A stretch of 64,000 bases of DNA from Arcobacter sp. LA11 (GTDB taxonomy: Bacteria > Campylobacterota > Campylobacteria > Campylobacterales > Arcobacteraceae), in the NCBI RefSeq assembly GCF_001895145.1, contig NZ_BDIR01000011.1:1-64000 (forward strand), given 5' to 3'. This document shows positions 949 through 17,959 of this stretch, piece by piece; positions within the stretch are counted from its first letter, which is position 1, and the number at the start of each line of letters is the position of its first letter. Position numbers and translations under genes: made by a program. The notes beneath the pieces are model-generated. The model was given only the letters and a program-made list of their open reading frames with translations, was not told where the DNA came from and made no database searches.

Positions 949-980
949 ATAATAGTAAAAAAGAATCGTGATTAAATCGC
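949..980 (-). promoter_or_regulatory. Operator-like direct repeat plus -10, SDR promoter (site B)
   Basis: Reading the minus strand, GCGATTTAATCACGA (980 to 966) holds two GCGA-like half-sites 11 bp apart. Eleven bases later comes TATTAT (954-949), a plausible -10 hexamer. The repeat therefore covers the -35 position, as expected for an OmpR/PhoB-type activator. Near-identical elements with the same spacing precede dmpK and the porin gene. Binding by the adjacent response regulator is inference. Confidence 0.6.
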
Positions 981-1042
981 ATTTTATTTTATAAAATTAA
1001 TTAAAGGATAAAAGATTTCTTTTTAGTATATACTAGATTGAA

Positions 1043-1801
1043 CTATAAAAGTTCAATCTTATAACCTGTATTATTTTGATTTACAATTAAATCTTTATGT
1101 ATTTTTCCTCTTAGTCTAAATAACAGTGATCTAAAAGCAGCATATCCAGCAGGCTCGTCTTGCCATATTGCGTATTCTAATTGTTCTTGTGAAATGTTAT
1201 GTCCAGGTGAGCTACATAATAGTTTTATAATTTTAATCTCTTTGGATGTTAGTTTTACAGGTTCATCTCCATAATAGAGAACTTCTTTCTCTTTATCAAA
1301 TAGGTACCCAAATTTCAATCTTACTGTTCTTGATTTTTCTTCTGTATTTATAGATAGTTTATGTTCTAAAGTTTTATTGATATTTTGTACAGCGTCTAGT
1401 TTTTGAGTTTTTGATTTATCCTCTTCGGCTTTTTTTAAAGCTACTTCAATTGCAGCTTGTAATATATTTTTTTTGTAAGGTTTTAATATGTATCCGTATG
1501 GAAAAGTTTCTGATGCCTCTTTAATTGTTGAGAGTTCAGAATTTGCAGTTAGAAATATTATAGGAGTATTAGGAATAATTGTTTTTAACTCTTTTGCTAA
1601 AACTATACCTGTTGTAGGACCTTTTAAATAAATATCCATTAAAATCAAATCAGGAACTACTCCTTTTTCTAAAATTTTTAATGTTTTACATTTATTAGGA
1701 GCTATGCCACAGGGTTCGTAACCTAGCTCAATTAGTGTTTCTTTTAAATTTAAAGCAATTATTGATTCATCTTCTACAATCAAAATTTTTATTTTATTCA
1801 T
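1043..1801 (-). CDS. Response regulator, REC plus OmpR-type winged helix
   Basis: 252 residues. The receiver domain occupies about residues 4-125, with acidic E10/D11, phosphoacceptor D56, T85 and K107. The C-terminal region (about 160-250) matches the OmpR/PhoB winged-helix DNA-binding domain (Trans_reg_C), with a typical ending of recognition helix and beta hairpin. AGGAG precedes the ATG at 1801. The gene overlaps the end of the upstream histidine kinase gene by 8 bp, so the two are a translationally coupled two-component pair. OmpR-type regulators bind tandem direct repeats about 10-11 bp apart, which fits the repeats at 966-980, 3160-3174 and 17945-17959. It is the likely activator of the phenol operon; no DmpR-type regulator is present. 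Confidence 0.88.
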   Translation of the reverse strand: MNKIKILIVEDESIIALNLKETLIELGYEPCGIAPNKCKTLKILEKGVVPDLILMDIYLKGPTTGIVLAKELKTIIPNTPIIFLTANSELSTIKEASETFPYGYILKPYKKNILQAAIEVALKKAEEDKSKTQKLDAVQNINKTLEHKLSINTEEKSRTVRLKFGYLFDKEKEVLYYGDEPVKLTSKEIKIIKLLCSSPGHNISQEQLEYAIWQDEPAGYAAFRSLLFRLRGKIHKDLIVNQNNTGYKIELL

Positions 1802-3095
1802 AGCTATTCTCCTTTTGAGGAAATTTAATATTACACTCTAGTCCTTTATTATTACAAAATTCAATTTCTCCATCAAGTTGATCTTCTACAATGGAATGTA
1901 TTAATTGCATTCCAATTGATTCACTCTTATATAAAGAATTTATCTTTTTCATACCATCTCCATTATCTCTTATTTTTAATAATATAAAATCATCAATTAT
2001 ATTCATATGAATACATAAAAGATTATCTCTATTTTCACTAAAGGCATACTTAAAAGCATTTACACAAAGTTCGTGCAATACCATTCCTAATTGAATACAT
2101 CTATTAGTTGAAAAAATAAGTTTGTCAATATGTAAATCAACGGTTAGTTTTGTATTTTGAGATATGTATAAATCTTTTATATCTTCAACTAGTTTGGTAA
2201 TATAATCAGGTAAGTTAATATATGCTAAGTTTTCCCCTAAATATAAAAATTCATGAACTAGTGCCATTGTATGGATTCTACTTCTACTTTGTTTCATTGC
2301 ATCTTTTAACTCATTATCGTTACTTCTTCTTTCTTGCATATTTAATAAAGAAGAGATTATTTCCATATTATTTTTAACTCTATGATGAATTTCTTTTAAA
2401 AGAATCTCTTTTTCATCAATAGACTTTTGAAGTTCTCTATTCATTGTTGTTATACTATTTCTATATTCTAGTCTTTGTGTCATATCTCTTCCAAATGCAC
2501 ATATATAATCTTTCCCTCCATATATAAATCCGTGCCCTGATACTTCAATTGGAATAATAGTTCCATCTTTTTTTCTTTGTGTTGTTTCAAGTCTCCAGTT
2601 TTTTGTATTTTTAATTTCTAACATACATACTTGTGCGGAGTTCCTATCAAAATTTGGATCCATATCTTCTAAGTCCATATCTAACATCTCTTCTTTTGTA
2701 TATCCTAGTATGTTACAAGCTGCTTGATTTACATAAACAAATTTTGCATCAAGAGTGAACCAATATATTTGGTCAACTGAATTATCTAAAGCAAATTCAT
2801 AAGGGGCTAATCTATCTTTATCTTTTTGTTTTAGTTCATTGTATGATTTTTCTATTTTAGTGATTACTTTTTGCATATGATTAATCATTATATATAAAAT
2901 TATCCCAGTAGATATCATAAATAGTATTACAAATGTAATGGGACCTTGATTTGTTATGTCATTATTTTCAAAAAATATTTTAATTAATTTATCTAAAAGA
3001 AGAACGCCTAAAATACCAGTAAAAATAAAAGTCAGAGAGAATCTTCTTGCAATTTTTTTATTATTAAAAAAACGAGTTTTAAATTTATATTTCAA
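1794..3095 (-). CDS. Membrane PAS histidine kinase (HisKA_2 type)
   Basis: 433 residues. Two membrane segments (about 19-41 and 52-72) are separated by only some ten residues, so there is no periplasmic sensor domain. A PAS domain follows (about 98-210), then a HisKA_2 dimerisation box with the sequence EIHHRVKNNM (H237/H238). An HATPase domain (about 325-430) has an N box at HELCVNAFKYAF and a DNGDGM G1 box. The PAS domain is the most likely ligand sensor. It is transcribed divergently from dmpK and coupled to the response regulator gene, so a role in sensing phenol or its products is a strong inference but not shown. Confidence 0.87.
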   Translation of the reverse strand: MKYKFKTRFFNNKKIARRFSLTFIFTGILGVLLLDKLIKIFFENNDITNQGPITFVILFMISTGIILYIMINHMQKVITKIEKSYNELKQKDKDRLAPYEFALDNSVDQIYWFTLDAKFVYVNQAACNILGYTKEEMLDMDLEDMDPNFDRNSAQVCMLEIKNTKNWRLETTQRKKDGTIIPIEVSGHGFIYGGKDYICAFGRDMTQRLEYRNSITTMNRELQKSIDEKEILLKEIHHRVKNNMEIISSLLNMQERRSNDNELKDAMKQSRSRIHTMALVHEFLYLGENLAYINLPDYITKLVEDIKDLYISQNTKLTVDLHIDKLIFSTNRCIQLGMVLHELCVNAFKYAFSENRDNLLCIHMNIIDDFILLKIRDNGDGMKKINSLYKSESIGMQLIHSIVEDQLDGEIEFCNNKGLECNIKFPQKENSYE

Positions 3096-3159
3096 ACCAA
3101 GACCTTTTTTATCATTATTTCTAAAATTATATCATAAAGAAAAAAATGAAATTTATACT

Positions 3160-3191
3160 GCGATTAATTCGCGAATATTTTTTATTAAACT
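3160..3191 (+). promoter_or_regulatory. dmpKp: Operator-like direct repeat plus -10, phenol operon promoter (site C)
   Basis: GCGATTAATTCGCGA (3160-3174) carries two perfect GCGA half-sites 11 bp apart. Eleven bases later TAAACT (3186-3191) is a weak -10-like hexamer. The element lies in the 168-bp gap between the divergent kinase gene and dmpK and points towards dmpK. It matches site B and site A in repeat period, orientation and spacing. Confidence 0.6.
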
Positions 3192-3263: not shown

Positions 3264-3530
3264 ATGAGTAATGAGTTGATTACAGATTTTGATAAGTATG
3301 TTCATATTACAAATCAAACTAAAGCTGGATTAATAGAGTTTGATTTTTCTGTTGGAGATCCAACAATGTATCTTGAACTTGCTTTACCAGTAAGACAATT
3401 TGAAAATTTTTGTAATAAAAATGGTGTTAAGTATTTAACTAAACAACAAGAGATTGATGTGGAAAATGACAGACATAAGTGGAAGTATGGCGAAGTTGGA
3501 ACATTAAAATATGAAAAGGAGCAAGAGTAA
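3264..3530 (+). CDS. dmpK: Phenol hydroxylase accessory/assembly protein DmpK
   Basis: 88 residues, the usual size for DmpK/PhK proteins, which help assemble active phenol hydroxylase but are not part of the catalytic complex. Family features include the stretch VGDPTMYLELALPVRQFENFC (conserved hydrophobic core, residues about 31-50). It is the first gene of the catabolic operon. A strong AGAAAGGG ribosome site precedes the ATG, and the stop overlaps the dmpL start by one base (TAATG). The presumed operator and promoter lie at 3160-3191. Confidence 0.87.
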   Translation: MSNELITDFDKYVHITNQTKAGLIEFDFSVGDPTMYLELALPVRQFENFCNKNGVKYLTKQQEIDVENDRHKWKYGEVGTLKYEKEQE

Positions 3531-4525
3531 TGACATTAGATATAAAAAGTATTGATATACAGCCTAAAAGGGAGACCTTTGGTCATGTTGCAAGGCGTAT
3601 TGGAGAAGGTAAGGCTGCAACTAGATATGAAGAAGCTACATATGACTTACAAGCAACGCATAACTTTCATTATAGACCAACATATAACCCTAAGTATGAG
3701 TTATATGATACTGATAAAACAGCTATTAAGATGGAAGATTGGTATAAGTTTTTAGATCCAAGACAATATTACTATTCAAACTATGTAATGACAAGAGCAA
3801 AACAGCAAGAAGTAGCAGAGCAAAACTTTACTTTTATAGAAAAAAGAGATCTTTTATCTGTAATGCCTCAAGATGTAAAAAATGAGATTTTAAATCATGT
3901 TTTACCTTTAAGACACTATGAATGGGGAGCTAATATGAACAATCTTCAATTAGTTTCTGAAAGTTATGGGGCGGCTTTTGCTAGTGCTTCTATGTTCCAT
4001 GCTGAAGATAGATTAGGTAATGCTCAATATATTACTAGAATTGGTTTAATGATCTCTGAAAATGAGACAGATGTTTTAGATAATTCAAAAGAAGCATGGT
4101 TAAATGATGCTTCATGGCAACCATTAAGAAAAGCACTTGAAGATTCATTTGTTTTAGAAGATTGGTTTGAGTTACATATGGTTCAAAATATAATTATGGA
4201 TGGATTTATTCAACCACTATTTTTTAATGTGTATGAACAAGAATTAAATGCAAGAGGTGGAAGTGCACAAGGAATGATGAGTGAATTTATTACAACTTGG
4301 TATGAAGAATCATCTAAGTGGACTGATAAAACTATTGAGGTTGCATCATCTGAGTCAGAAGAAAATGCTCAGTTATTATCTTCTTGGGCAATAAAATATA
4401 TTGAAATCATGGAAGAAGCAACTTTAGCCTTAGCAAAAAATATTGTTGAAAATCCTACTTCTACAGTTGCAACAATTAAAGAAAATTTAATTAACCGTTT
4501 AAATAAAAACGGTCTAAAAGTATAG
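3530..4525 (+). CDS. dmpL: Phenol hydroxylase beta subunit DmpL
   Basis: 331 residues, matching the non-catalytic ferritin-like beta subunit of the (alpha-beta-gamma)2 bacterial multicomponent monooxygenases. The N-terminus is rich in Tyr/His/Pro with the family pattern DPRQYYYSNYV near residue 75. The helical core contains the LLSVMPQDV and LPLRHYEWGANMNNLQL stretches seen in toluene/phenol monooxygenase beta chains. It lacks the pair of EXXH iron sites found in the alpha subunit. It overlaps dmpK by one base and is followed 8 bp later by dmpM, as in other phenol hydroxylase operons. Confidence 0.92.
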   Translation: MTLDIKSIDIQPKRETFGHVARRIGEGKAATRYEEATYDLQATHNFHYRPTYNPKYELYDTDKTAIKMEDWYKFLDPRQYYYSNYVMTRAKQQEVAEQNFTFIEKRDLLSVMPQDVKNEILNHVLPLRHYEWGANMNNLQLVSESYGAAFASASMFHAEDRLGNAQYITRIGLMISENETDVLDNSKEAWLNDASWQPLRKALEDSFVLEDWFELHMVQNIIMDGFIQPLFFNVYEQELNARGGSAQGMMSEFITTWYEESSKWTDKTIEVASSESEENAQLLSSWAIKYIEIMEEATLALAKNIVENPTSTVATIKENLINRLNKNGLKV

Positions 4526-4533
4526 GAGATACT

Positions 4534-4809
4534 ATGTCACAAAATAATGTAATGTTAGTTCTTCAAGCAAATGAAGAAGCACGTCCTATGGTTGAAGCAA
4601 TACAAAAAGACAACCAAGATGCAATTGTTGAAAATCAGCCTGCAATGATAAAAATAACATCTCCTGGAAAGTTAGTCATAAAAGCTGAAACTATGGAAGA
4701 AATTATTGGACGAGAATGGGATCCTCAAGAACTTCAACTTGTTTTGATTTCACTTGCAGGTAATGTTGATGAAGATTATGATCATTTTACAATCTATTGG
4801 GATAACTAG
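4534..4809 (+). CDS. dmpM: Phenol hydroxylase coupling (effector) protein DmpM
   Basis: 91 residues, the typical length for the cofactorless MmoB/DmpM regulatory component that binds the hydroxylase and couples electron transfer to hydroxylation. The sequence opens with the family beta strand (NNVMLVLQANEEARPMVEAI) and contains MIKITSPGKLVIKAE with the expected Gly. It sits between the beta and alpha subunit genes in canonical order, preceded by a TAGGAG ribosome site. Confidence 0.92.
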   Translation: MSQNNVMLVLQANEEARPMVEAIQKDNQDAIVENQPAMIKITSPGKLVIKAETMEEIIGREWDPQELQLVLISLAGNVDEDYDHFTIYWDN

Positions 4810-4818
4810 GAGCAAACA

Positions 4819-6339
4819 ATGACTATGAACACTAAAAATAGAAAAAAACGTTTAAATATGAAAGAAAAATATAAACATATGACAAGACTTGGTTGGGAAA
4901 CTAGCTACCAAGATATGGATAAAGTTTTTCCTTATGATAATTATGAAGGTATTAAAATTCATGATTGGGAAGCTTGGGAAGACCCATTTAGAATGACAAT
5001 GGATTCTTACTGGAAATATCAAGGTGAAAAAGATAAAAAGTTATATGCAATTATTGATGCTTTTGCTCAAAATAATGCTCAAAAAAATATTACGGATGCA
5101 AGATATGTATCTGCATTAAAATTGTTTTTAACTGGTGTTTCACCATTAGAATATCAAGCTCATAGAGGTTTTGCACATGTTGCAAGAAATTTTAGAGGTG
5201 ATGGTCCAAGAGTAGCGTGTCAAATGCAAGCAATTGATGAACTAAGACATGTTCAAACTCAAATTCATACTTTAAGCCATTATAACAAACACTTTAACGG
5301 ATTTTCTGAGTTTGCACATTGGCATGATAGAGTTTGGTATCTTTCTGTTCCTAAATCATTCTTTGATGATGCAAGAACTGCTGGACCATTTGAATTTATG
5401 ATTGCAATTGGATTTTCATTTGAGTATGTATTAACAAACCTTTTATTTGTACCATTTATGAGTGGAGCTGCTTATAATGGAGATATGGCAACTGTTACAT
5501 TTGGATTCTCTGCACAATCTGATGAAGCTAGACATATGACATTAGGTCTTCAAGCTATTAAATTTATGTTAGAGCAAGATCCAGCAAATGTTCCAATCGT
5601 ACAAGGTTGGATTGATAAGTGGACATGGAGAGGTTATAAAGTTTTAGGGCTTGTATCAATGATGATGGATTATATGTTACCTGAATCTCCACAGTCATGG
5701 AAAGAAGCATGGGAATTATATTTTGAAGAAAATACTGTTGCACTATTTAAAGATTTAGAAAGATATGGAATCAAAGTTCCTGATTGTGCAGGAACAGTTG
5801 CAGCTGAAAAAGATCATTTATCTCATCAAATTTGGATGACATTTTATACTCATGGAGCAGCAGCACCTTTCCATACTTGGTTACCTGATGAAAAGAAAAT
5901 GGATTGGTTAAGTGAAAAATATCCAGATACATTTGATAAATATTATAGACCAGTATATGAACATTGGGCAAAATTAGAGAAAGAGGGTAAGAGATATTAT
6001 TCAGAAATGTTACCCCAACTTTGTCAGACTTGTCAGATACCAATGCTTTATACAGAGATTGAAAAAGGTGAACCAACACAAATTGCCCATAGACATACTA
6101 TCTTCAATGGTGAGAGATTTCATTTTTGTTCTGATCATTGTAAAGACATTTTTGAGAATGAACCTGAAAAATATACCCATGCGTGGATGCCTGTACAACA
6201 AATATTCCAAGGAAATTGTGGTGGGGCAACACTTCCAGAAGTTTTAGATTGGTATAAAGTTAAGTTTGGTACAGACAATTTAGATTATGTAGGGTCTGAA
6301 GATGAAGCTACATGGAAACAGTGGCATGGGCAAGAATAA
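4819..6339 (+). CDS. dmpN: Phenol hydroxylase alpha (diiron) subunit DmpN
   Basis: 506 residues. This is the catalytic subunit that inserts oxygen into phenol to give catechol. The six carboxylate/histidine iron ligands are visible with family spacing: E111, E141 and H144 (DELRH), E202, E236 and H239 (DEARH). The C-terminal third holds a YHS-like zinc-binding region with CQTC and HFCSDHC motifs, typical of phenol hydroxylase alpha chains. The start follows AGGAGCAAACA. Another ATG lies two codons in, and the exact start is not critical. It is flanked by dmpM and dmpO. Confidence 0.95.
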   Translation: MTMNTKNRKKRLNMKEKYKHMTRLGWETSYQDMDKVFPYDNYEGIKIHDWEAWEDPFRMTMDSYWKYQGEKDKKLYAIIDAFAQNNAQKNITDARYVSALKLFLTGVSPLEYQAHRGFAHVARNFRGDGPRVACQMQAIDELRHVQTQIHTLSHYNKHFNGFSEFAHWHDRVWYLSVPKSFFDDARTAGPFEFMIAIGFSFEYVLTNLLFVPFMSGAAYNGDMATVTFGFSAQSDEARHMTLGLQAIKFMLEQDPANVPIVQGWIDKWTWRGYKVLGLVSMMMDYMLPESPQSWKEAWELYFEENTVALFKDLERYGIKVPDCAGTVAAEKDHLSHQIWMTFYTHGAAAPFHTWLPDEKKMDWLSEKYPDTFDKYYRPVYEHWAKLEKEGKRYYSEMLPQLCQTCQIPMLYTEIEKGEPTQIAHRHTIFNGERFHFCSDHCKDIFENEPEKYTHAWMPVQQIFQGNCGGATLPEVLDWYKVKFGTDNLDYVGSEDEATWKQWHGQE

Positions 6340-6348
6340 GGAGATATT

Positions 6349-6711
6349 ATGGCAGTTAAATCAATAGGAAAATATGAAGCGAAAATGATGGATGCAGTTG
6401 AAAACTTTCATGGGAATCAACTTGTTTATATAGGATGGGATAAACATAGGCTGATTAATTCAGCTATGGCTTTCCCTTTACCTCCACAAATGCCATTTGG
6501 GGCACTGTTAAGTGATGTAATGCCGATGTGTTATAAAGATCATCCAGATTTTGAACAGGTTGTTTGGGATGATTCTATTATTTGGAATTTAAATGGAGAA
6601 TTATTTGTTCCAGATGTTGAAAAATCTTTACAAGATAATGGAATAGATCATAAATCAATTTTGAGATTTGAAACACCAAATCTTACAGGACTTAATGGCG
6701 TAGGAATGTAA
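6349..6711 (+). CDS. dmpO: Phenol hydroxylase gamma subunit DmpO
   Basis: 120 residues, the length of the small gamma subunit that stabilises the hydroxylase dimer. Family sequence features include the FHGNQLVYIGWDKHR stretch (about residues 19-33) and PLPPQMPFGALLSDVMP (about 45-61). An AAGGAG site precedes the ATG. The stop is separated from dmpP by one base, so translation of the reductase is likely coupled. Confidence 0.92.
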   Translation: MAVKSIGKYEAKMMDAVENFHGNQLVYIGWDKHRLINSAMAFPLPPQMPFGALLSDVMPMCYKDHPDFEQVVWDDSIIWNLNGELFVPDVEKSLQDNGIDHKSILRFETPNLTGLNGVGM

Positions 6712-6712
6712 T

Positions 6713-7771
6713 ATGAGTTATCAAGTAGAGATAGAGCCAACTGGTGATGTAATTGAGGTTCAAGATGGACAAACTATTCTTGATGCCGCATTAAGACAAG
6801 GTGTCTATATCCCACATGCTTGTTCTCATGGTTTATGTGGAACTTGTAAGGTTGAAGTTCTAGAAGGAGAAGTAGATTATGGTGCTGCTTCACCTTTTGC
6901 ATTGATGGATATAGAGAAAGATGAAGGGAAATGTCTAGCTTGTACTGCAACGCCAATGGAAGATTGTGCGATTGAAGCTGATATTGACGAAGAACCAGAT
7001 GCTAGAACAATTCCTGTACAGGATTTTATGGGAACAGTTGTTGAGGTAAAAGATTTAACGCCAAGAATTAAAGGAATTTTTATTGAATTAGATGAAGAGA
7101 TTGATTTTCAAGCAGGACAGTATATTCAATATTATGTTCCTGGATTTGAAGAACCAAGAGCGTTTTCTTTGTGTAATTCATCAAATAATAAAAAAATTAT
7201 TGAGTTAAATATTGCATTAGTTCCTGATGGTGAAGCAACACCTTGGATACATAAAAATGTAAAAGTAGGTGCAAGAAGGAAAATTGCTGGACCATATGGA
7301 AGATTTTTTGTACGAGAATCTGCAAATAAACCAATGATTTTCTTTGCAGGTGGTTCTGGACTTTCAAGTCCAAAATCAATGATTTTAGAACAACTTGAAA
7401 ATGGAAGTACTCAACAAATACATCTATTTCATGGAGCAAGAAATCAAGAAGAACTTTATTATTCTGATATGTTTGAAAAATTGGCTGAAGAATATGAAAA
7501 CTTTACATACGTTCCTGTGTTATCAGATAATGATTTAGAGAATTGGAATGGAAGAACAGGTTTTGTAAATGATGCAGCAAATGAGATATTTGAAAATGAT
7601 TTTTCTGGTTCAAAGGCATATTTATGTGGCCCTCCACCAATGATTGATGCGTGTATTACAACTTTAATGAGAGGAAGACTTTTTGATAGAGATATATATA
7701 CTGAAAAGTTTTTTTCTAAAGCGGATTTAAATAGTACAAGTGTTCAAAGTCCTCTTTTTAAATCAATCTAG
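6713..7771 (+). CDS. dmpP: Phenol hydroxylase reductase DmpP (2Fe-2S, FAD, NADH)
   Basis: 352 residues. This component passes electrons from NADH to the diiron subunit. An N-terminal plant-type ferredoxin domain (about 1-90) has cysteines C37, C42, C45 and C77 in the C-x4-C-x2-C-x31-C pattern. An FAD domain follows with the RAFSLCNS motif near residue 150, then an NAD domain with GGSGLSSPKSM near 222 and the CGPPPMID motif near 306. Length and order agree with DmpP. It ends the KLMNOP block. Confidence 0.95.
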   Translation: MSYQVEIEPTGDVIEVQDGQTILDAALRQGVYIPHACSHGLCGTCKVEVLEGEVDYGAASPFALMDIEKDEGKCLACTATPMEDCAIEADIDEEPDARTIPVQDFMGTVVEVKDLTPRIKGIFIELDEEIDFQAGQYIQYYVPGFEEPRAFSLCNSSNNKKIIELNIALVPDGEATPWIHKNVKVGARRKIAGPYGRFFVRESANKPMIFFAGGSGLSSPKSMILEQLENGSTQQIHLFHGARNQEELYYSDMFEKLAEEYENFTYVPVLSDNDLENWNGRTGFVNDAANEIFENDFSGSKAYLCGPPPMIDACITTLMRGRLFDRDIYTEKFFSKADLNSTSVQSPLFKSI

Positions 7772-7779
7772 GTTTTGAA

Positions 7780-8112
7780 ATGGGCGAAAAAATATTCTTA
7801 ATGACAATGGAAGGTTCTAATAAAGAGATTATTGGAACAAAAGATAAACACATCTTAGATGCTATGTTAGCTGTTGGAATTGATAAAGCTCCAAAAGGTT
7901 GCCATGGCGGAGGATGTGGTGTTTGTAAAATTAAGATAATAAAAGGAGAAGTTACTACTTTAACTCAAAGTAGAAAGTTCTTATCAGTAGAAGAAGAGAA
8001 AGATGGTCATGTACTTGCATGTAGAGCATTCCCTCTTTCAGACTTAGAGTTTGAATTTATTGGAAAACCTAAATGTAAAGTTAATGAAAAGAAAAAATAC
8101 GGATTTGTATAA
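7780..8112 (+). CDS. dmpQ: XylT-type chloroplast-like 2Fe-2S ferredoxin DmpQ
   Basis: 110 residues. The cysteine pattern GCHGGGCGVCK, with a later CRAF cysteine, marks a plant-type 2Fe-2S ferredoxin. In other meta-cleavage operons XylT/DmpQ proteins re-reduce the iron of inactivated catechol 2,3-dioxygenase, and this gene directly precedes that enzyme's gene. The GCHGGGCG loop, in place of the CSxGxCGTC of reductase domains, fits the XylT subgroup. Confidence 0.88.
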   Translation: MGEKIFLMTMEGSNKEIIGTKDKHILDAMLAVGIDKAPKGCHGGGCGVCKIKIIKGEVTTLTQSRKFLSVEEEKDGHVLACRAFPLSDLEFEFIGKPKCKVNEKKKYGFV

Positions 8113-8123
8113 AAGGAAAAACT

Positions 8124-9068: not shown

Positions 9069-9076
9069 GATTTGAA

Positions 9077-9493
9077 GTGAAAACATTTAATCACAATGAT
9101 ATATCTATGCAAGCAGCTTTTGCTGCTTGTAATGAAGCTGTGAAAAAAGCAGAAGAACTTAAGATAAAAATTAATGTAAGTATTTGTGATAGTGCTGGAT
9201 TAGAACTAGCTTTTTTAAGAATGAATGGTTCATATATTCACTCAATTAATATTGCAAAAGATAAAGCATATACTAGTGCAAGTTTTGGGTTTAGTACTGC
9301 TACTTGGACAGATATTTTTAAGGAAGCTTCACACTTAGAACAAGGATTTTCTAATAGAGATAGACTAATACCTTTTGGTGGAGGTCTACCTATTATGAAT
9401 GAAAATGAACTTATAGGTGCAATTGGAGTTTCTGGAGGAACAGAGGAAGAAGATATTATTTGTGCGCAAGCAGGAATAAATAAAATAGTATAA
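9077..9493 (+). CDS. GlcG/HbpS-family protein (DUF336)
   Basis: 138 residues, GTG start preceded by AGGA. It belongs to the GlcG/HbpS fold family, with the alternating pattern of AFAACNEAVKKAEEL, the beta strand INVSICDSAGLELAFLRM, the KAYTSASF segment and the C-terminal GGLPIMNENELIGAIGVSGG. Some members bind haem or cobalamin-like ligands; most are uncharacterised. It lies between catechol dioxygenase and 2-hydroxymuconic semialdehyde dehydrogenase, so a role in catabolism or enzyme protection is plausible but unproven. Confidence 0.85.
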   Translation: MKTFNHNDISMQAAFAACNEAVKKAEELKIKINVSICDSAGLELAFLRMNGSYIHSINIAKDKAYTSASFGFSTATWTDIFKEASHLEQGFSNRDRLIPFGGGLPIMNENELIGAIGVSGGTEEEDIICAQAGINKIV

Positions 9494-9512: not shown

Positions 9513-10970
9513 ATGAAAAAAGTACAACATTATATAAATGGACAATTTGTAGATTCACAATGTGGTGAATTTTTTGATAACTATAACCCAGCAACAAATG
9601 AGTTGATTTCAAAAGTAGCTTTAGGACGGGAATATGAAGTAAATGCGGCAGTTGAAGCTGCAAGAAAAGCATTAACTGGGGAATGGGGGCAAATGAAGTT
9701 AAATGACAGAATTGCTTTAATGTATGAAATTGCAAATGAAATGGATAAAAGATTTGATGATTTCTTAGAAGCTGAAACTCTTGATACAGGTAAACCATAC
9801 TCTATTGCCAGACATATTGATATTCCAAGAGGAGCTGCAAACTTCAAAGTATTTGCTGATACCATGAAATCAGTTGCAGATGAAGCATATAGAATGGATA
9901 CACCAGATGGCAAAACTGCAATGAACTATTCAATGAGACAGCCAAAAGGTGTTATTTCTGTTATTTCTCCTTGGAATTTACCACTTCTTTTAATGACTTG
10001 GAAAGTTGGCCCCGCTCTAGCTTGTGGTAATACAGTTATTGTAAAACCTTCTCAAGTAACTCCTACAACAACATCACTTTTAGGTGAAGTAATGTCTAAA
10101 GTTGGAATTCCTGATGGAGTTTATAATGTAGTACAAGGAAAAGGGTCTATTACTGGGAATTTAATTACTGCTCATAAAGATATTGATGCTATTACTTTTA
10201 CAGGTGAAACTGTAACAGGTGAAAAAATTATGAAAGAGTGTTCTGTTGGTGTTAGGGATGTTTCTTTGGAACTTGGTGGTAAAAACCCTGCAATTATCTT
10301 TGAAGATTGTGATATGGATAAAGCAATTACTGAAACAACAAGATCAGCCTTTGCAAATTCTGGACAAGTGTGTTTAGGTACAGAAAGAGTTTATGTACAA
10401 AGACCAATTTTTGATAAATTTGTCAAAAGATTAAAAGAGTCTGCTCAAAATTTAAAACTTGGAGTTCAAAATGATGAATCATCAGATATGGGTCCATTAG
10501 TAAGTGCAGCACATAGAGATAAAGTTTTATCATATTATGAAACAGCAGTTGCTGAAGGTGCAAATGTAGTTTTAGGTGGAGGGACTCCTACAATGACAGG
10601 TAACTTAAAAGATGGTTATTGGGTTGAACCAACAATTTGGACAGGCTTAAGTGAAGATGCAACGGTTGTAAAAGAGGAAGTATTTGGACCTTGTTGTCAT
10701 GTTCAACCATTTGATACAGAAGAAGAAGTTATAAAAATGGCAAATAATTCTCCATATGGTTTAGCTTCTACAGTATTTACTGAAAATCTAGATAAAGCTC
10801 ATAGAGTTGCAGGACAGATTGATTCAGGAATTGTATGGATTAACTCATGGTTTTTAAGAGATTTAAGAACACCATTTGGTGGGATGAAAGGTTCTGGAAT
10901 TGGACGTGAGGGTGGTCATCACTCTTTAGAATTCTATACAGAGCTAAAAAATGTATGTATAAAGATGTAA
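9513..10970 (+). CDS. dmpC: 2-hydroxymuconic semialdehyde dehydrogenase
   Basis: 485 residues, the aldehyde dehydrogenase superfamily length. It oxidises 2-hydroxymuconic semialdehyde to 4-oxalocrotonate with NAD+. Visible catalytic residues are N155 in SPWNLP, E253 in LELGGKNP and the nucleophile C287 in SGQVCLGTERV. The C-terminal PFGGMKGSGIGREGG is the usual family signature. Neighbours define the pathway branch: this enzyme feeds the decarboxylase/tautomerase route (dmpH, dmpI), while dmpD gives the hydrolytic route. Confidence 0.93.
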   Translation: MKKVQHYINGQFVDSQCGEFFDNYNPATNELISKVALGREYEVNAAVEAARKALTGEWGQMKLNDRIALMYEIANEMDKRFDDFLEAETLDTGKPYSIARHIDIPRGAANFKVFADTMKSVADEAYRMDTPDGKTAMNYSMRQPKGVISVISPWNLPLLLMTWKVGPALACGNTVIVKPSQVTPTTTSLLGEVMSKVGIPDGVYNVVQGKGSITGNLITAHKDIDAITFTGETVTGEKIMKECSVGVRDVSLELGGKNPAIIFEDCDMDKAITETTRSAFANSGQVCLGTERVYVQRPIFDKFVKRLKESAQNLKLGVQNDESSDMGPLVSAAHRDKVLSYYETAVAEGANVVLGGGTPTMTGNLKDGYWVEPTIWTGLSEDATVVKEEVFGPCCHVQPFDTEEEVIKMANNSPYGLASTVFTENLDKAHRVAGQIDSGIVWINSWFLRDLRTPFGGMKGSGIGREGGHHSLEFYTELKNVCIKM

Positions 10971-10977
10971 GGACAAA

Positions 10978-11769
10978 ATGATGGAAAAAGCAAAAATTGA
11001 AAAATATGGTAATGAATTATATGAAGCTTTAAAATCTAACACAATGATTGAACCTATTACTTCAAGAGAATCAGATATTACAATTGAAGATGCCTACGCA
11101 ATTCAAGACGTGTTTATCAAAAGAAGAATAAAAGATGATGGTGTAAAAGTTATTGGTAAAAAAATTGGTGTTACATCAAAAGTTGTAATGGATATGTTAG
11201 GTGTTCATCAGCCAGATTTTGGATATCTTTTATCTGATATGATTTATTCTGATGGTGATGAAATAGATGTTACAAATAAAATGATTCAACCAAAAGCAGA
11301 GGGTGAAATTGCCTTTGTTCTAAAAGAAGATTTAATGGGACCAGGGGTTACAACGGCTGATGTTTTAAGAGCAACAAAATTTGTGATGCCTTGTTTTGAA
11401 ATTGTTGATTCTAGAATTAAAGATTGGAAAATAAAAGTACAAGATACAGTTGCAGATAATGCTTCTTGTGGATATATAGTATTTGGAGGACAAGGTGTTA
11501 ATCCTAGAGATGTTGATTTGACAACTTGCGGTTTAACATTAGAAGCGAATGGAGAATTATTACATACAGGAGCAGGTGCCGCTGCTCTAGGAAGTCCTGT
11601 AAATGCAGTTGCCTGGCTTGCAAATACTTTAGGCTCTTTTGGAGTTGGTCTAAAAGCTGGTGAGGTAATACTTTCAGGAGCTTTATGTGCGATGGTTACG
11701 ATTAAACCAAATGATAATATGACTATTAATGTAGGTGGAATTGGTTCTGCTTCTTGTAGATTTGTGTAA
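10978..11769 (+). CDS. dmpE: 2-oxopent-4-enoate (2-hydroxypenta-2,4-dienoate) hydratase
   Basis: 263 residues. It adds water to 2-oxopent-4-enoate to give 4-hydroxy-2-oxovalerate. It is a member of the hydratase/decarboxylase family together with DmpH in the same operon. The family motifs KIGVTSKVVMDMLGVHQPDFGYL, EGEIAFVLKEDL and CFEIVDSRIKDWKIKVQDTVADNAS hold the metal-binding acidic residues. It can be told from DmpH by position and by the CGYIVFGG versus SSRYVTGG segment, so swapping of the two names is possible but unlikely. Confidence 0.88.
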   Translation: MMEKAKIEKYGNELYEALKSNTMIEPITSRESDITIEDAYAIQDVFIKRRIKDDGVKVIGKKIGVTSKVVMDMLGVHQPDFGYLLSDMIYSDGDEIDVTNKMIQPKAEGEIAFVLKEDLMGPGVTTADVLRATKFVMPCFEIVDSRIKDWKIKVQDTVADNASCGYIVFGGQGVNPRDVDLTTCGLTLEANGELLHTGAGAAALGSPVNAVAWLANTLGSFGVGLKAGEVILSGALCAMVTIKPNDNMTINVGGIGSASCRFV

Positions 11770-11778
11770 ATAGTGCAA

Positions 11779-11796
11779 AGGATAACTTGTTATCCT
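11779..11796 (+). other. Hairpin 1 between dmpE and dmpF
   Basis: AGGATAA and TTATCCT form a perfect 7-bp stem around CTTG. It is the first of three stem-loops in the 130-bp gap between dmpE and dmpF. Confidence 0.45.
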
Positions 11797-11816
11797 CTTT
11801 AGGATTTGTTTATTTA

Positions 11817-11835
11817 GGTGAAATTTATTTTCACC
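11817..11835 (+). other. Hairpin 2 between dmpE and dmpF
   Basis: GGTGAAA and TTTCACC form a perfect 7-bp stem around TTTAT. No U-tract follows, so it is more likely a processing or stabilising hairpin than a terminator. Confidence 0.45.
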
Positions 11836-11861
11836 GTTAAAAGAAATAAAAAGAATAAAAG

Positions 11862-11887
11862 GTCCCTTCAAAATAGGGACTATTTTT
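11862..11887 (+). terminator. Terminator-like hairpin upstream of dmpF
   Basis: GTCCCT (11862-11867) pairs with AGGGAC (11875-11880), followed by TATTTTT. It resembles a weak intrinsic terminator. It lies inside the operon, 12 bases before the dmpF start, so it probably attenuates or marks an RNA processing site rather than ending the operon. Confidence 0.45.
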
Positions 11888-11899
11888 AAGGAATTAAGT

Positions 11900-12784
11900 A
11901 TGAAAATTAACTGCGCATTAATTGGATCTGGAAATATAGGAACAGATTTAATGTATAAACTTCAAAGAAGTGAGATTTTAAACCCATTATGGATGGTAGG
12001 AATTGATCCAGAATCTGATGGATTATTAAAAGCAAAAGAAGCTGGAATGAAAATTACTTCTGATGGTGTAGATGGATTATTAGAATATATTGAAGATGAT
12101 GGAGTAATGATTGCTTTTGATGCAACATCAGCTTATGTTCATGGTGAGAATAATAGAAAACTAAAAGAAAAAGGTGTAATGGTTATAGATTTAACACCTG
12201 CTGCAATTGGGCCATTTTGTGTTCCTTCTGTAAATATGAAAGAGTTACTTTCTAAAAATGAACAAAATGTAAATATGGTTACTTGTGGAGGGCAAGCTAC
12301 TATTCCAATGGTAGCGGCTGTATCTGCTGTTCAAGCTGTTGAATATGGCGAGATTGTTGCAACAGTTGCTTCAAAATCAGCAGGTCCAGGAACAAGGGCA
12401 AATATTGATGAGTTTACAGAGACTACTAAACTAGGTATAGAAAAAGTTGGTGGTGCAAAACTTGGTAAAGCAATTATAATTTTAAATCCTGCTGAGCCAC
12501 CTTTAATGATGAGAGATACTGTTCACTGTTTAACAGTTGATGACCCAGATGAAGAAGCTATTACAAAATCTGTAAATGAGATGATAAGTGAAGTTCAAAA
12601 GTTTGTACCAGGCTATAAATTAAAAAATGGTCCAGTATTTGATGGAAAAAAAGTATCTATCTTTTTAGAAGTTGAAGGTTTAGGAGATTACTTACCAAAG
12701 TATGCGGGTAATCTAGACATTATTACAGCTGCCGCAACAAATATTGCAGAGCAAATGGCTGAACAAATAAAAGCAGGAGCATAA
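11900..12784 (+). CDS. dmpF: Acetaldehyde dehydrogenase (acylating)
   Basis: 294 residues. It converts acetaldehyde, NAD+ and CoA to acetyl-CoA and normally works in a complex with the aldolase DmpG, to which acetaldehyde is channelled. The Rossmann motif is [10 protein letters not shown] (10-19). The catalytic cysteine is C129 in [11 protein letters not shown], and the family DP/NTP segments are present. It is slightly shorter than Pseudomonas DmpF. AAGGAATTAAGT precedes the start, and dmpG follows after 2 bp. Confidence 0.94.
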
Positions 12785-12786
12785 TT

Positions 12787-13815
12787 ATGGATTTAAGAGG
12801 AAAAAAAGTAACTCTTCATGATATGTCATTAAGAGATGGAATGCACTCTATTAGACATCAGTTTACATTAGAACAAATGACAAAAATGTCAATGGCTATG
12901 GATGAAGCGGGTGTTCCTATGATTGAGGTGACTCATGGAGATGGCTTAGGAGGAACTTCACTTAATTATGGTTTTGGTTTACATAGTGATGAAGAGTGGT
13001 TAGATGCTGTTGTTCCTAATGTAAAACAAACAAAAGTATCTGCTCTTTTACTTCCTGGTATTGGAATTGTAAAAGATTTAGAACGAGCAGTAGAACATGG
13101 AATTTCAACTGTTAGGGTTGCAACACATTGTACTGAAGCTGATTGTTCTCAACAACATATCACAAAAGCTAAAGAGATGGGCTTAGATACAGTTGGTTTT
13201 TTAATGATGGCACATATGGTTGACGAAAAAAGAATTGTTGAAGAAGCTAGAAAGATGGTTTCATATGGTGCAAATTGTATTTATGCAACAGATTCTGCTG
13301 GATATATGTTACCAGATATGGTTAGTGCAAGAATAGGGGCTTTGAAAAAAGAGTTTGGAGATGAAATTGAAATTGGATTTCACGGTCATAATAATATGTC
13401 TATGGGTGTTGCTAATTCTCTGGCTGCAATCGAATCAGGGGCAACTAGAATTGATGCTTCACTAGCAGGATTTGGAGCAGGTTCTGGAAATACAGCAATG
13501 GAAGTTTTAGTAGCTGTTTTAAATAGAATGGGTGTTGAAACTGGAATTGATTTAAATAAAATTGAAGATGCAGCTGAAGATATCGCTTTACCAATTATGG
13601 GGAAACCTACAAGAATTTCTAGAGATTCTTTAACTCTTGGATATGCAGGTGTTTACTCTTCTTTTTTACTTTTTGCACGTCGTGCTGAAGCAAAATATGG
13701 AATAGATACAAGAACTATTTTAGAAGAACTAGGTCGAAGAGGAACTGTTGGTGGTCAAGAAGATATGATTGAAGATTTAGCATTAGATATGGCAAAAGAG
13801 CAAGGATTAATATAA
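12787..13815 (+). CDS. dmpG: 4-hydroxy-2-oxovalerate aldolase
   Basis: 342 residues, class II pyruvate aldolase. It splits 4-hydroxy-2-oxovalerate into pyruvate and acetaldehyde. R16, D17 and H20 in SLRDGMH and the metal ligands H199/H201 in GFHGHNN match DmpG with a shift of one residue. The C-terminal communication domain used to bind DmpF is present. The stop overlaps the dmpH start (TAATG). Confidence 0.95.
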
Positions 13816-14603
13816 TGGCATTAGATAAAGCAACAATAGAAAAGCTAGCTAAGCATTGTGAAGATGCTGAGGTTCAGGCTTATGAGATTACAAAGATAAC
13901 TGATGATTATCCTCAAATGACATATGAGGATGCATATGATATCCAATGGAAAGCAAGAGCTAATAAAGAAGCTAGAGGTACAAAAATAGTTGGTATGAAA
14001 ATGGGTCTAACTTCTCAAGCTAAGATGAAACAAATGGGAGTTGAAAATCCTTGTTATGGATATTTAGCAGATTATTTTGCTTATGGTGATGGAGCAGAAA
14101 TTAAGATTGATGAGTTAATTCATCCTAAAGTAGAAGCTGAAATTGCTTTTATTTTAAAAGATGATTTATCAGGCCCTGGGTGTCATATTGGAGATGTTTT
14201 AGCTGCAACTGATTTTGTTATGCCTGCAGTTGAAATTATTGATTCTAGATATAAAGATTTTAAATTTGATTTAAAATCAGTTATTGCTGATAACTCTTCG
14301 TCTTCTAGATATGTAACTGGTGGAAGAATGAGAGATATAAAAGACTTAGATTTAAAAACTCTAGGTGTTGTTATGGAAATAAATGGTGAAGTAGTTCAGC
14401 TTGGAGCTGGAGCTGCTGTTCTTGGTCATCCTGCAACATCAATTGCTATGTTAGCAAATATGATGGGTGAAAGAGGTGAAGTTTTAAAAGCTGGTACTTA
14501 TATTCTTTCAGGTGCAATTACTGCTGCAGTGGGAGTAAAAAAAGGTGATAATGTAACTGTGAAATTTCAAGATCTTGGTTGTTTAACAATGAAGTTTGTA
14601 TAA
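13815..14603 (+). CDS. dmpH: 4-oxalocrotonate (2-oxo-3-hexenedioate) decarboxylase
   Basis: 262 residues. It is the paralogue of DmpE that decarboxylates the 4-oxalocrotonate isomer made by DmpI to 2-oxopent-4-enoate. Shared family motifs are KMGLTSQAKMKQMGVENPCYGYL, EAEIAFILKDDL and AVEIIDSRYKDFKFDLKSVIADNSSSS. The SSSR tract and the position next to dmpI support the decarboxylase assignment. It overlaps dmpG by one base. Confidence 0.9.
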   Translation: MALDKATIEKLAKHCEDAEVQAYEITKITDDYPQMTYEDAYDIQWKARANKEARGTKIVGMKMGLTSQAKMKQMGVENPCYGYLADYFAYGDGAEIKIDELIHPKVEAEIAFILKDDLSGPGCHIGDVLAATDFVMPAVEIIDSRYKDFKFDLKSVIADNSSSSRYVTGGRMRDIKDLDLKTLGVVMEINGEVVQLGAGAAVLGHPATSIAMLANMMGERGEVLKAGTYILSGAITAAVGVKKGDNVTVKFQDLGCLTMKFV

Positions 14604-14612
14604 AGGAATCCT

Positions 14613-14804
14613 ATGCCAATTGCAACAATAAATATAATTGAAGGAAGATCTGATGAAAAAAAAGAGGATCTTATTATAAAAGTAACTCAAGCTATTCATG
14701 AATCAATTGATGCTCCTATTGAATCAATAAGAGTGATATTAAACGAGATGCCAAAACAACATTTTGGAATAGCTGGTAAAAGTATAAAAAAGTTAGGTAA
14801 ATAG
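14613..14804 (+). CDS. dmpI: 4-oxalocrotonate tautomerase
   Basis: 63 residues including Met1. The mature N-terminal proline (MPIATI) is the catalytic base of this family. The GRSDEKK segment holds Arg11, and RVILNEM holds Arg39 (numbering from Pro1). Size and hexamer-forming beta-alpha-beta pattern are as expected. It keto-enol isomerises 2-hydroxymuconate for DmpH. AAGGAATCCT precedes the ATG. Confidence 0.94.
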   Translation: MPIATINIIEGRSDEKKEDLIIKVTQAIHESIDAPIESIRVILNEMPKQHFGIAGKSIKKLGK

Positions 14805-14844
14805 TATATTAAAACTAAATATATTTGATGAAAAAAGGAATAAG

Positions 14845-15663
14845 ATGGAAAACCCAGAAATAGCACATAGTATAAAAACTGGAAACTTTAAAACAAATTA
14901 TCATGATATGGGAAGTGGCGAAACAGTAATATTTATTCATGGCTCAGGACCAGGTGTTTCTGCTTTTGCAAACTGGAGATTATGTATGCCAGATTTATCT
15001 GAAAACTTTAGAGTACTTGCCCCTGATATGGCTGGTTTTGGTTTTACTGAAAGGCTAGAAAATTCAAGTTATAATATGGATGTTTGGGTTAAACAAATAA
15101 TCGATTTAATGGATGCCTTAGATATCAAAAAAACAAATCTTGTTGGAAACTCATTTGGTGGTGCTTTAGCATTATCTTTAACGATTAAATATCCTGAAAG
15201 GTTTAAAAAAATTGTACTTATGGGATCAATGGGTGTTGAATTTGAATTAACAGCAGGACTTGATCAAGCTTGGGGTTATACTCCAAGTTTAGAAAACATG
15301 AAATCTTTACTTGATACTTTTGCATATAGTAGAGTTTTAGTAACAAATGAGTTAGCAAAGTTAAGATATGATGCAAGTATACGTCCAGGTTTTCAAGAGT
15401 CATTTTCTTCAATGTTTCCAGCTCCTAGACAAAATTCGGTTAGAGATATGGCAAGTAAAGAAGAAGATATAAAGAAAATTGATAAAGATGTATTGATTAT
15501 TCATGGAAGAGATGATAAAGTTATTCCTTTTGAAAACTCTATAAGGTTACATAGTTTAATCCAAAAATCTCAATTACATGGATTTGGGGAGTGTGGACAT
15601 TGGAGTCAAATTGAACACAAAGATAGATTTAATAAAATAGTAAAAGATTTTTTTATGGAGTAA
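14845..15663 (+). CDS. dmpD: 2-hydroxymuconic semialdehyde hydrolase (alpha/beta hydrolase)
   Basis: 272 residues. It cleaves the ring-opened product hydrolytically, yielding formate and 2-oxopent-4-enoate from the catechol product. The oxyanion motif is HGSGPGVSAFANW (32-44), the nucleophile is S103 in GNSFGGAL, the acid is D223/D224 in HGRDDKVIP, and the base is H252 in CGHWSQIE. In Pseudomonas CF600 dmpD follows dmpC; here it is at the operon end, after dmpI. The identification as the meta-cleavage hydrolase is firm at subfamily level. Confidence 0.9.
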   Translation: MENPEIAHSIKTGNFKTNYHDMGSGETVIFIHGSGPGVSAFANWRLCMPDLSENFRVLAPDMAGFGFTERLENSSYNMDVWVKQIIDLMDALDIKKTNLVGNSFGGALALSLTIKYPERFKKIVLMGSMGVEFELTAGLDQAWGYTPSLENMKSLLDTFAYSRVLVTNELAKLRYDASIRPGFQESFSSMFPAPRQNSVRDMASKEEDIKKIDKDVLIIHGRDDKVIPFENSIRLHSLIQKSQLHGFGECGHWSQIEHKDRFNKIVKDFFME

Positions 15664-16614: not shown

Positions 16615-16640
16615 AAAGAAGAGCTGAAAAGCTCCTCTTT
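16615..16640. terminator. Bidirectional terminator between phenol operon and porin
   Basis: AAAGA-A-GAGCT (16615-16625) pairs with AGCTC-C-TCTTT (16630-16640) around GAAA, with one mismatch. The A and T tracts on either side suit termination of both converging transcripts. Confidence 0.7.
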
Positions 16641-16641
16641 A

Positions 16642-17829
16642 TTAGAATTTATAACTTAAATAAATTCTTGTTGTATCTGTGTCTTCTTTAAAAACTTTCT
16701 CTGTTTCTACGTGTTCATAATTTACTTTTAACAGAAAATTTTTATAAAATGGGTATATTATCATAGCTCCAACAGCATCTACATCTCCTAAAGCATGAGT
16801 TTTTGAGGCAGAATGTCCTGCATAGGCAATAACTGTTGAATTTGCAATTGGCGCAATAATACCTCCTACAATAGTATCTGTATCAGCTCTAACAGGTACT
16901 CCTCCTCCATGAACTGGCATGGCTGTAAATGGAGTATCAGATGTCCCTGCTCCTGCACCTGTATATACAGGTGCATGTTTATCCGTGCTTGAAGTATATG
17001 CAGCTATATATGCAAGTTTTCCAATTCCTAATGGACCCATTGCTTTTAATCCAAATAATTTACCATCTTGTGCATCAGAAGCCTGTGTTTTATCTGTTGA
17101 AGTTAAAACTTGCGCTGAGATATTGTGACCAGCAATTACATAATCGGCTTGTAGATATAATGCCTCTTTATCAGAAGCTGATGTTTGACCATTTTCTTTT
17201 AAATATTGGGCTTGTAATGTAAGGTCTTTAATAGAAGTATTTTTAGCATAAATAGTATATGCTCCATCTTGAAATTTATCAAAATCTCCAGTGTCTCCTA
17301 TAGAATTAGTTTTTCCTTGATATTTATTTATATAACCTGCAACTAAAGTTGTATCAGGAATATCTGTGTTTGTTAAAACATAAGCTTCAAAAGAATCTTT
17401 TAAAATTGATTCAGAAGATTTTCCATCTATTGCCGTACTTACCAGAGGTGTATAGATATATTGCCTACCAGCTTTTAAACTTGTTTTTGAAATTGTATAA
17501 TCAATATATGCTTCTGATAAAACTGCACCAGATGCATCTAAATCATTTGCAAAAACATTACTATTATTTTTATCATCTATAATAGAAGATGTCTGAAAAG
17601 TAGCCCCTGCTTTAAAACCATAAAAATCACCTGTTATGATACCTAAACTACCACCAACAGCCGTAATATTATCTGATTTCTTATTTCCTAGGAAATTTGA
17701 GTTTGAGTATTCTGCTTTAATCTCACCTTTTACTTTTGAGTTTGAAAAAGCTTCTGACAAGTTCTGTGCATTTACTGAGCTTATTAGAGCTAGAGAAGTA
17801 ACTAAACTTAACTTTACAATTTTTTTCAT
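16642..17829 (-). CDS. Outer-membrane porin (epsilonproteobacterial OprD/major OMP type)
   Basis: 395 residues. The signal peptide is clear (MKKIVKLSLVTSLALISSVNA, cleavage after VNA). The mature part is rich in Gly, Ser, Thr and alternating hydrophobic strands (for example LKAGRQYIYTPLVST), as in 16-18-stranded porins, and ends with the outer-membrane C-terminal Phe (RIYLSYKF). It converges on the phenol operon. A copy of the phenol operator with a -10 sequence lies about 100 bp upstream, so it is a candidate entry channel for phenolic substrates. Specificity is inference. Confidence 0.85.
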   Translation of the reverse strand: MKKIVKLSLVTSLALISSVNAQNLSEAFSNSKVKGEIKAEYSNSNFLGNKKSDNITAVGGSLGIITGDFYGFKAGATFQTSSIIDDKNNSNVFANDLDASGAVLSEAYIDYTISKTSLKAGRQYIYTPLVSTAIDGKSSESILKDSFEAYVLTNTDIPDTTLVAGYINKYQGKTNSIGDTGDFDKFQDGAYTIYAKNTSIKDLTLQAQYLKENGQTSASDKEALYLQADYVIAGHNISAQVLTSTDKTQASDAQDGKLFGLKAMGPLGIGKLAYIAAYTSSTDKHAPVYTGAGAGTSDTPFTAMPVHGGGVPVRADTDTIVGGIIAPIANSTVIAYAGHSASKTHALGDVDAVGAMIIYPFYKNFLLKVNYEHVETEKVFKEDTDTTRIYLSYKF

Positions 17830-17927
17830 TTTATTCCCTTAATTATGTGATTTTCAAAAGAAATCTCTTCTTCAATAGAAATTCGCAAAATATCAAAGAA
17901 GAAATCTATTTAGAGTTTTCATATATA

Positions 17928-17959
17928 AATATAATTAAATGAAATCGCATTTTAATCGC
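17928..17959 (-). promoter_or_regulatory. Operator-like direct repeat plus -10, porin promoter (site A)
   Basis: On the minus strand GCGATTAAAATGCGA (17959 to 17945) has two perfect GCGA half-sites 11 bp apart. Eleven bases downstream TATATT (17933-17928) is a good -10 hexamer. The porin start is about 100 bp further, leaving a long leader. The same arrangement is found upstream of dmpK and the SDR gene. Confidence 0.6.

Follow-up and report, generated by a model that had tools for sequence, protein, structure and literature searches.

A putative two-component operator shared by the phenol degradation promoters of Arcobacter sp. LA11

The first 64,000 nucleotides of contig NZ_BDIR01000011.1 from Arcobacter sp. 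LA11 (the window) contain three 15-bp elements, each a tandem pair of GCGA-like half-sites, upstream of an SDR-family oxidoreductase gene, the phenol hydroxylase gene dmpK and an Opr-family porin gene. These elements are very likely the operators of the two-component system encoded beside them, which would jointly activate the porin, the phenol/meta-cleavage and the SDR operons. The original prediction, made from the letters of the window, had assigned the elements to this adjacent regulator. Genome comparison strongly supports the assignment through the co-occurrence of sites and regulator in 24 of 24 family genomes and through sites at orthologous promoters, from which we infer binding itself.

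Specificity and geometry of the operators

Operator 1 (GCGATTTAATCACGA, minus strand, 966–980) lies upstream of the SDR gene, operator 2 (GCGATTAATTCGCGA, plus strand, 3160–3174) upstream of dmpK and operator 3 (GCGATTAAAATGCGA, minus strand, 17945–17959) upstream of the porin gene. A sequence check placed all three 15-mers at the positions and on the strands originally predicted, each followed after exactly 11 bases by the claimed -10-like hexamer: TATTAT (954–949, minus), TAAACT (3186–3191, plus) and TATATT (17928–17933, minus). The three genes towards which the sites were said to point also stand, with one correction, a distance of 37 bases between the site and the SDR start codon at 928; the open reading frame (ORF) listing gives a longer SDR frame (134–982) that starts 2 bases before operator 1. 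In the window GCGA-N7-RCGA (GCGANNNNNNNRCGA) matches only the three sites. With up to one mismatch GCGATTNNNNNRCGA was found three times against 0.67 expected, and because 3 of 100 window shuffles also reach three near-matches, support from the window by itself is modest.

The whole genome (3,098,976 bases, with reversed motifs as controls) is more discriminating. Exact GCGATTNNNNNRCGA occurs at the three sites only. The looser GCGANNNNNNNRCGA has eight matches, the three sites and five others, against 14 for its reversed control, and when TANNNT is demanded at offset 11 exactly three remain in 3.1 Mb, all of them the reported sites, against one in the control. All three fall in 17 kb around the kinase/regulator pair. 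None of the other five matches has TANNNT at offset 11 and four of them lie inside open frames of at least 100 codons. Frequent occurrence across the genome had been named in the original prediction as grounds for giving it up; the motif with its hexamer is instead rare. A hold-out weight matrix, built without this genome, G011 and G013 from a set of 123 sites (118 distinct, near-end sites and duplicates removed), scored the three sites at 28.8, 33.3 and 34.9 and the rest of the window at 8 or below. No additional targets were found in the genome: the 26 one-mismatch matches are at control level (29 matches in total against 31 reversed) and their flanks reach at best 1.5 on the hold-out matrix.

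The spacing of the half-sites was examined in 56 stretches of 24 relatives together with the first 22 kb of the window (37 regions, 979,588 bases, 25 genomes). Picking the stretches around the regulator, the hydroxylase and exact GCGATT-N5-RCGA matches inflates the count at k = 7; this selection did not act on the fixed distance to the -10, nor on the 48 of 112 sites in which the first GCGA is followed by other letters. Pairs of the form GCGA-Nk-RCGA number 125 at k = 7 and at most 5 at every other k from 0 to 21, and for 112 of these pairs TANNNT stands at offset 11, the runner-up offset having 22 pairs. Six N7 pairs (L111, L132, L133, L134 and L152) carry AATAAT at offset 11 in place of TANNNT, four before one kind of periplasmic binding protein and two before another, and these are perhaps a second promoter class. 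A reading of the three sites as look-alike GC-containing words in AT-rich DNA, arising by chance or from promoter composition, could draw on the window shuffles and on the fact that GCGA-N7-RCGA without the -10 is no commoner in the genome than its reversed control. The spacer test, the genome-wide count with the -10 and the orthologous promoters described below all contradict it, and a chance origin was rejected as vanishingly improbable.

At positions -1, 4 and 5, which the search pattern leaves free, the two half-sites agree, each with a T (r 0.97–1.00 over the 118 distinct sites), giving the half-site consensus TGCGATT repeated at 11-bp spacing. Palindromic GCGA-N5-TCGC was found 12 times against the 125 direct repeats, and a palindromic operator was rejected; since direct repeats so outnumber palindromes, the near-palindrome in operator 2 is secondary. 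When the last T of the hexamer is set at -7, the GCGA blocks begin at -38 and -27; conservation of a T at -17 reaches 96–97% across sites. In the E. coli phoA promoter the repeats are likewise 11 apart, and the second TGTCA stands 16 bases from TATAGT, which we take to be its -10 hexamer, compared with 15 from the second GCGA here. That the adjacent regulator binds but represses, or does both, with phosphorylation releasing rather than recruiting polymerase, is improbable. The sign of control is not readable from sequence and the kinase and dmpK share one intergenic region in this genome, which leaves room for repression; the 112 of 125 operators that end 11 bases upstream of a -10-like hexamer, much as at phoA, suit activation.

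The original prediction described an 11-bp direct repeat replacing the -35. The repeat is borne out, and the missing -35 says little: in the account of sigma-70 promoters given in PMC3847290, those of Campylobacter jejuni lack a -35 and carry a periodic signal at -7, -17, -27 and -38, with a conserved T at those positions in both C. jejuni and Helicobacter pylori. By extension from C. jejuni, no -35 would be expected in Arcobacteraceae promoters either. The -17 T may be an ordinary promoter feature, because the periodic signal includes this position, and GCGA may stand in for the signals at -27 and -38.

Conservation of the operators in Arcobacteraceae

Operators with a -10 within 400 bases upstream were counted in 45 regions (the 37 above and 8 from 9 more stretches). 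Rows below identity limits (SDR 60%, porin 35%, dmpK 30%, dmpQ 40%, others 45%) were dropped, as were rows below 60 bits except for dmpK, dmpM, dmpQ and the porin, and so were copies with less than 200 bases of preceding sequence (a single one for each of the response regulator, dmpN, dmpD and porin). Conservation upstream of orthologues, which the original prediction requires, was found at 25/25 dmpK promoters, 19/19 SDR promoters and 25/26 porin promoters; the miss is the 35%-identical porin of G007, and the 26 copies include that of G032, a genome in which no regulator was found. At dmpQ the operator is present in 22 of 24 copies, absent only in Arcobacter sp. LA11 (G000) and G013. In these two genomes dmpQ trails dmpP by about ten bases and dmpQ and the meta-cleavage genes of LA11 would be co-transcribed with dmpK; elsewhere the catechol operon is preceded by a promoter of its own. 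Most likely LA11 merged two operons under one operator, or its relatives split one. Other operon genes have no operator except dmpL (24/24) and one catechol 2,3-dioxygenase gene, whose 400-base windows extend back to the leading promoter. Autoregulation through the same operator was rejected, as an own-strand site lies within 400 bases of none of 37 kinase and none of 36 regulator genes.

Further first genes behind the sites group by product. A malate/lactate-type dehydrogenase accounts for 8; each of two types of periplasmic binding protein and a prephenate dehydratase-like protein for 4; a chemotaxis receptor and a second Phenol_Hydrox protein for 2 each; and a TauE-type exporter and an isocitrate/isopropylmalate-type dehydrogenase for 1 each. 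These identities come from one member per cluster put to Pfam, with one binding protein barely above cut-off, and not every site before these genes has its -10 at 11. By the ORF rule eight sites have no ORF behind them, and five lead to single, unassigned genes. The regulon of uptake, phenol degradation and SDR genes originally proposed is thus supported, and is wider in relatives, where the dehydrogenase, binding proteins, prephenate dehydratase-like protein and chemotaxis receptor join it. The porin promoters of G051, G091 and G095 have two tandem operators 240–253 bases apart. The phenol regulon is also carried by the Arcobacter cloacae plasmid pACLO (L255), with two hipA-type toxin-antitoxin regions within and beside it.

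Across 104 genomes of the family, the regulator (E <= 1e-60) was found in 24 and the hydroxylase large subunit also in 24, of which 23 are shared; G026 has the regulator without the hydroxylase, and G095 the hydroxylase without the regulator, its kinase reaching a contig end. All 24 regulator-bearing genomes hold 3–8 full-pattern sites each, 117 in total against 7 reversed-control matches. Among the 80 regulator-less genomes G095, with 6 sites, was set apart; the remaining 79 have 19 sites in all (65 at zero, maximum 3) against 31 reversed-control matches. A Fisher test on at least 3 sites gives 1.3e-20, a value that should not be read as a probability for independent samples because the genomes are related. 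A third paralogue of the pair (L113, contig G007:C28, 10191–19962; regulator 69%) lies near Rieske-dioxygenase-like, reductase, transporter and porin genes, presumably a benzoate-type set as judged by eye. The single site there has TATAAT at offset 10 and, by the ORF rule, no plus-strand ORF behind it.

The regulator and its kinase

The regulator (1043–1801, minus strand), the proposed activator, is a receiver followed by a Trans_reg_C winged helix (Response_reg, PF00072, and Trans_reg_C, PF00486, both above gathering scores). Of the 26 window proteins searched against Pfam or NCBIfam, it alone has a DNA-binding domain. The phosphorylation residues Asp56, Thr85 and Lys107 are invariant in a 33-row alignment and matched in PhoB and RstA. 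The RstA dimer interface is formed by alpha4-beta5-alpha5, with salt bridges Asp97-Arg111 and Glu92-Arg113 in the description of Klebsiella RstA in PMC4117788. In our alignment, which used E. coli K-12 RstA, its Asp97, Arg111 and Arg113 fall on G103, A117 and E119, so these three salt-bridge residues are not matched; G103 and E119 are themselves invariant in the 33 rows. In the AlphaFold2 model (mean pLDDT 85.1, pTM 0.54) a single helix, residues 111–155, links the domains, with confidence lower near its end. Of the OmpR/PhoB-type assignment in the original prediction, the DNA-binding domain stands, and the receiver departs from the subfamily in its three missing dimer salt-bridge residues and its predicted 45-residue helix. 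Lacking these dimer residues, which belong to the defining features of OmpR/PhoB proteins, the regulator is no textbook member of that group. The model suggests that it may instead dimerise through the helix, perhaps as a coiled-coil. Whole-chain matches in a structure search superpose poorly (TM about 0.4–0.5), and no argument on domain arrangement was drawn from them. A tree unites second copies of the regulator from nine genomes with the third one from G007 in a single clade (10 rows, 99/98), which points to an old regulator duplication.

The histidine kinase (1794–3095, minus strand; PAS and HisKA_2), the proposed sensor, matches PF07568 (HisKA_2) with 91.7 bits, and its HHRVKNN is invariant in 33 rows. 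Its model (pLDDT 83.1, pTM 0.52) has two long N-terminal helices, then PAS and then the kinase domains, with a low-confidence loop of about ten residues between the helices. The composition of these helices suggests that they span the membrane, which would leave no room for a periplasmic sensor domain.

Relatives outside the family

At E <= 1e-60 the regulator was found in 11 of 398 genomes drawn from the order; G138 (51%) and G317 (55%) are the two of these that lie outside the family. When their own families were scanned at E <= 1e-45, 1 of 22 genomes had it in the first and 2 of 44 in the second. In both G138 and G317 the pair is flanked by two operators of the same geometry, behind which lie an aldehyde dehydrogenase gene and a cytochrome c-flavoprotein operon. 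The nearest solved structure to the G317 flavoprotein in a PDB comparison is p-cresol methylhydroxylase (1dii, E 8.7e-217). In Sulfuricurvum kujiense (Sulfurimonadaceae), plasmid pSULKU01 encodes a regulator of 45% identity and carries three operators, all with TANNNT at 11, and a cytochrome c/FAD-oxidoreductase/OprD set with an aldehyde dehydrogenase. The plasmid's FAD oxidoreductase shares 67% identity with the G317 protein, and that of G138 shares 79%; at 1e-30 no NCBIfam match was found for those of G317 and pSULKU01. The G317 stretch also has 4-hydroxybenzoate 3-monooxygenase and protocatechuate 4,5-dioxygenase genes, matched in the G138 stretch at 59–82% identity and not found in 20.8 kb of pSULKU01. 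An IclR-type regulator of the G317 stretch had no tblastn match in the G138 or pSULKU01 stretches.

The original notion of a phenol regulon fits Arcobacteraceae, and in the other families the operator adjoins p-cresol genes. Judged by these sequences, operator and regulator stay paired while the pathway changes. It is an evenly balanced question whether a distinct phenolic-responsive two-component family exists in Campylobacterales, partly plasmid-borne, with its geometry fixed and its pathway exchanged, and with a regulator dimerising via a long helical linker instead of the OmpR/PhoB face. The pathways in that scheme, held with the same even confidence, would be phenol hydroxylase with catechol meta-cleavage in Arcobacteraceae and p-cresol methylhydroxylase at three other loci, two of which also have 4-hydroxybenzoate/protocatechuate 4,5-cleavage genes in the same stretch.

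Alternative regulators and conflicting observations

The sites could be real regulon operators bound by a regulator encoded elsewhere, the adjacent pair being merely a neighbour; we judge this unlikely, if slightly less so than repression by the adjacent regulator. Such a regulator finds some encouragement in the second Trans_reg_C protein at the S. kujiense plasmid locus and in a recognition helix that does not fully track site presence. It is countered by the presence of sites and regulator together in 24 of 24 family genomes and the background level of sites where the regulator is lacking, by a pairing kept in G138, G317 and S. kujiense despite different target genes, and by the 11-bp tandem repeat, the expected target of a Trans_reg_C domain. 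The second S. kujiense protein (L254, 5785–6537) adjoins the OprD porin and has no Pfam receiver match. The PAGY in the recognition helix was dropped as sole specificity determinant, as the S. kujiense regulator has VGEG and yet adjoins operators.

Several observations weigh against assigning the operators to the adjacent regulator with this geometry. At the level of the sites, TANNNT is missing from offset 11 in 13 of the 125 N7 pairs, and the half-sites agree poorly at repeat positions -3 and 6 (r 0.59 and 0.40). At the level of the proteins, the unmatched salt-bridge residues belong here, as does the second Trans_reg_C protein of S. kujiense, whose regulator has a recognition helix resembling that of the 42–43%-identical paralogues of G001, G014 and G015, with no site in G014. 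Among the genomes, G032 (95% complete) has a porin-type site, near a contig end, and no regulator was found in it; G026 (L128) retains four sites, but its regulator is shortened and no dmpN was found; the three matches of the G138 genome, one away from the pair, equal its reversed control of three; and G231 (regulator 45%, one internal stop) shows no site in the 3.7 kb examined. The G026 regulator match starts only at residue 57, and the locus is possibly decaying or different. Its operators precede a prephenate dehydratase-like gene, the shortened regulator frame, the SDR gene and a chemotaxis receptor gene.

Genes at the locus

Behind operator 1 the first gene is the SDR-family oxidoreductase (134–928, minus strand; Pfam adh_short). 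The contig begins at the first base of the window, cutting off most of the gene behind SDR; read by eye, window positions 1–112 (minus strand) hold the start of an isocitrate/isopropylmalate-type dehydrogenase. The same gene order is found on pACLO, where this gene is annotated leuB, and in G037 a gene of this type has its own operator. On the plus strand dmpKLMNOP (3264–7771) encode phenol hydroxylase, assigned from Pfam Phenol_hyd_sub (dmpK), Phenol_Hydrox (dmpN) and ORFs; the other subunit letters are presumed from gene order and the usual dmp nomenclature. They are followed by dmpQ, catechol 2,3-dioxygenase and the meta-cleavage genes (7780–15663, plus strand; TIGR03211, TIGR03216, TIGR03220 and DmpG_comm). 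Catechol 2,3-dioxygenase, 2-hydroxymuconic semialdehyde dehydrogenase and 2-oxopent-4-enoate hydratase score above curated NCBIfam cut-offs, and by domain search acetaldehyde dehydrogenase and DmpG-type genes come next in the operon. The Opr-family porin behind operator 3 (16642–17829, minus strand) matches NF033923 (opr_proin_2) below cut-off and has no Pfam match. Beyond it lie DUF4198, CbiM, CbiQ, ABC and Cache-domain genes.

Discussion

Our results support a model in which the adjacent kinase and regulator control phenol uptake and degradation together. The membrane kinase would sense a phenolic signal via its cytoplasmic PAS domain or its membrane helices and phosphorylate Asp56 of the response regulator. 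Two winged-helix domains would then bind head-to-tail to the TGCGATT half-sites, with GCGA at -38 and -27, and the bound regulator would recruit RNA polymerase to the -10 hexamer ending at -7 in class II activation, so that the SDR operon, the phenol hydroxylase/meta-cleavage operon and the porin for uptake would come on together. What the comparison shows are the sites, their constant geometry, their orthology and their co-occurrence with the regulator; we infer that the regulator binds, is phosphorylated and activates rather than represses, where transcription starts, and that the signal is phenolic. A phenolic signal is proposed because the phenol and p-cresol pathways both start from phenolic compounds, and the adjacent pair probably responds to phenolics.

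By analogy, the system may work like a PhoB-type class II activator. PHO boxes are described as two 11-nt direct repeats bound in tandem (PMC4415409), and tandem binding is also reported in PMC3348028. Shared with PhoB are the two 11-bp direct repeats, a nearly equal distance to the -10 (at phoA) and a Trans_reg_C-type domain. The half-site is TGCGATT here and CTGTCAT for PhoB, however, and unlike PhoB the present system has a HisKA_2 kinase, phenolic catabolism targets and a receiver that lacks the dimer salt-bridge residues and is joined to the DNA-binding domain by a long helix. Elsewhere, operons of this kind are driven by DmpR, an NtrC-type regulator acting with sigma-54, whereas here we find a two-component system and a -10-type promoter. 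Pfam or NCBIfam searches of 26 window proteins revealed no NtrC-type or DmpR-type gene; they did not extend to the rest of the genome. TodT and StyR are regulators of the NarL/FixJ type. TodS/TodT and StyS/StyR resemble the LA11 pair in being two-component systems for aromatic catabolism and differ from its winged-helix regulator and short PAS/HisKA_2 kinase. Phenol-responsive control of phenol catabolism by DmpR is described in PMC7264223, toluene sensing by TodS through a PAS domain in PMC4861429 and PMC2442086, and TodS as a seven-domain kinase in PMC4321377.

In the open-licence full-text literature we found no described regulator of aromatic pollutant breakdown in Arcobacter-type bacteria. 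The operator makes candidate genes of phenolic metabolism out of those for the SDR, the Iso_dh and the malate/lactate-type dehydrogenase, together with the prephenate dehydratase-like protein, the binding proteins and the chemotaxis receptor, and biosensors could use it as a phenol-responsive promoter. For Arcobacter-type bacteria it would provide a testable regulatory code for the breakdown of aromatic pollutants.

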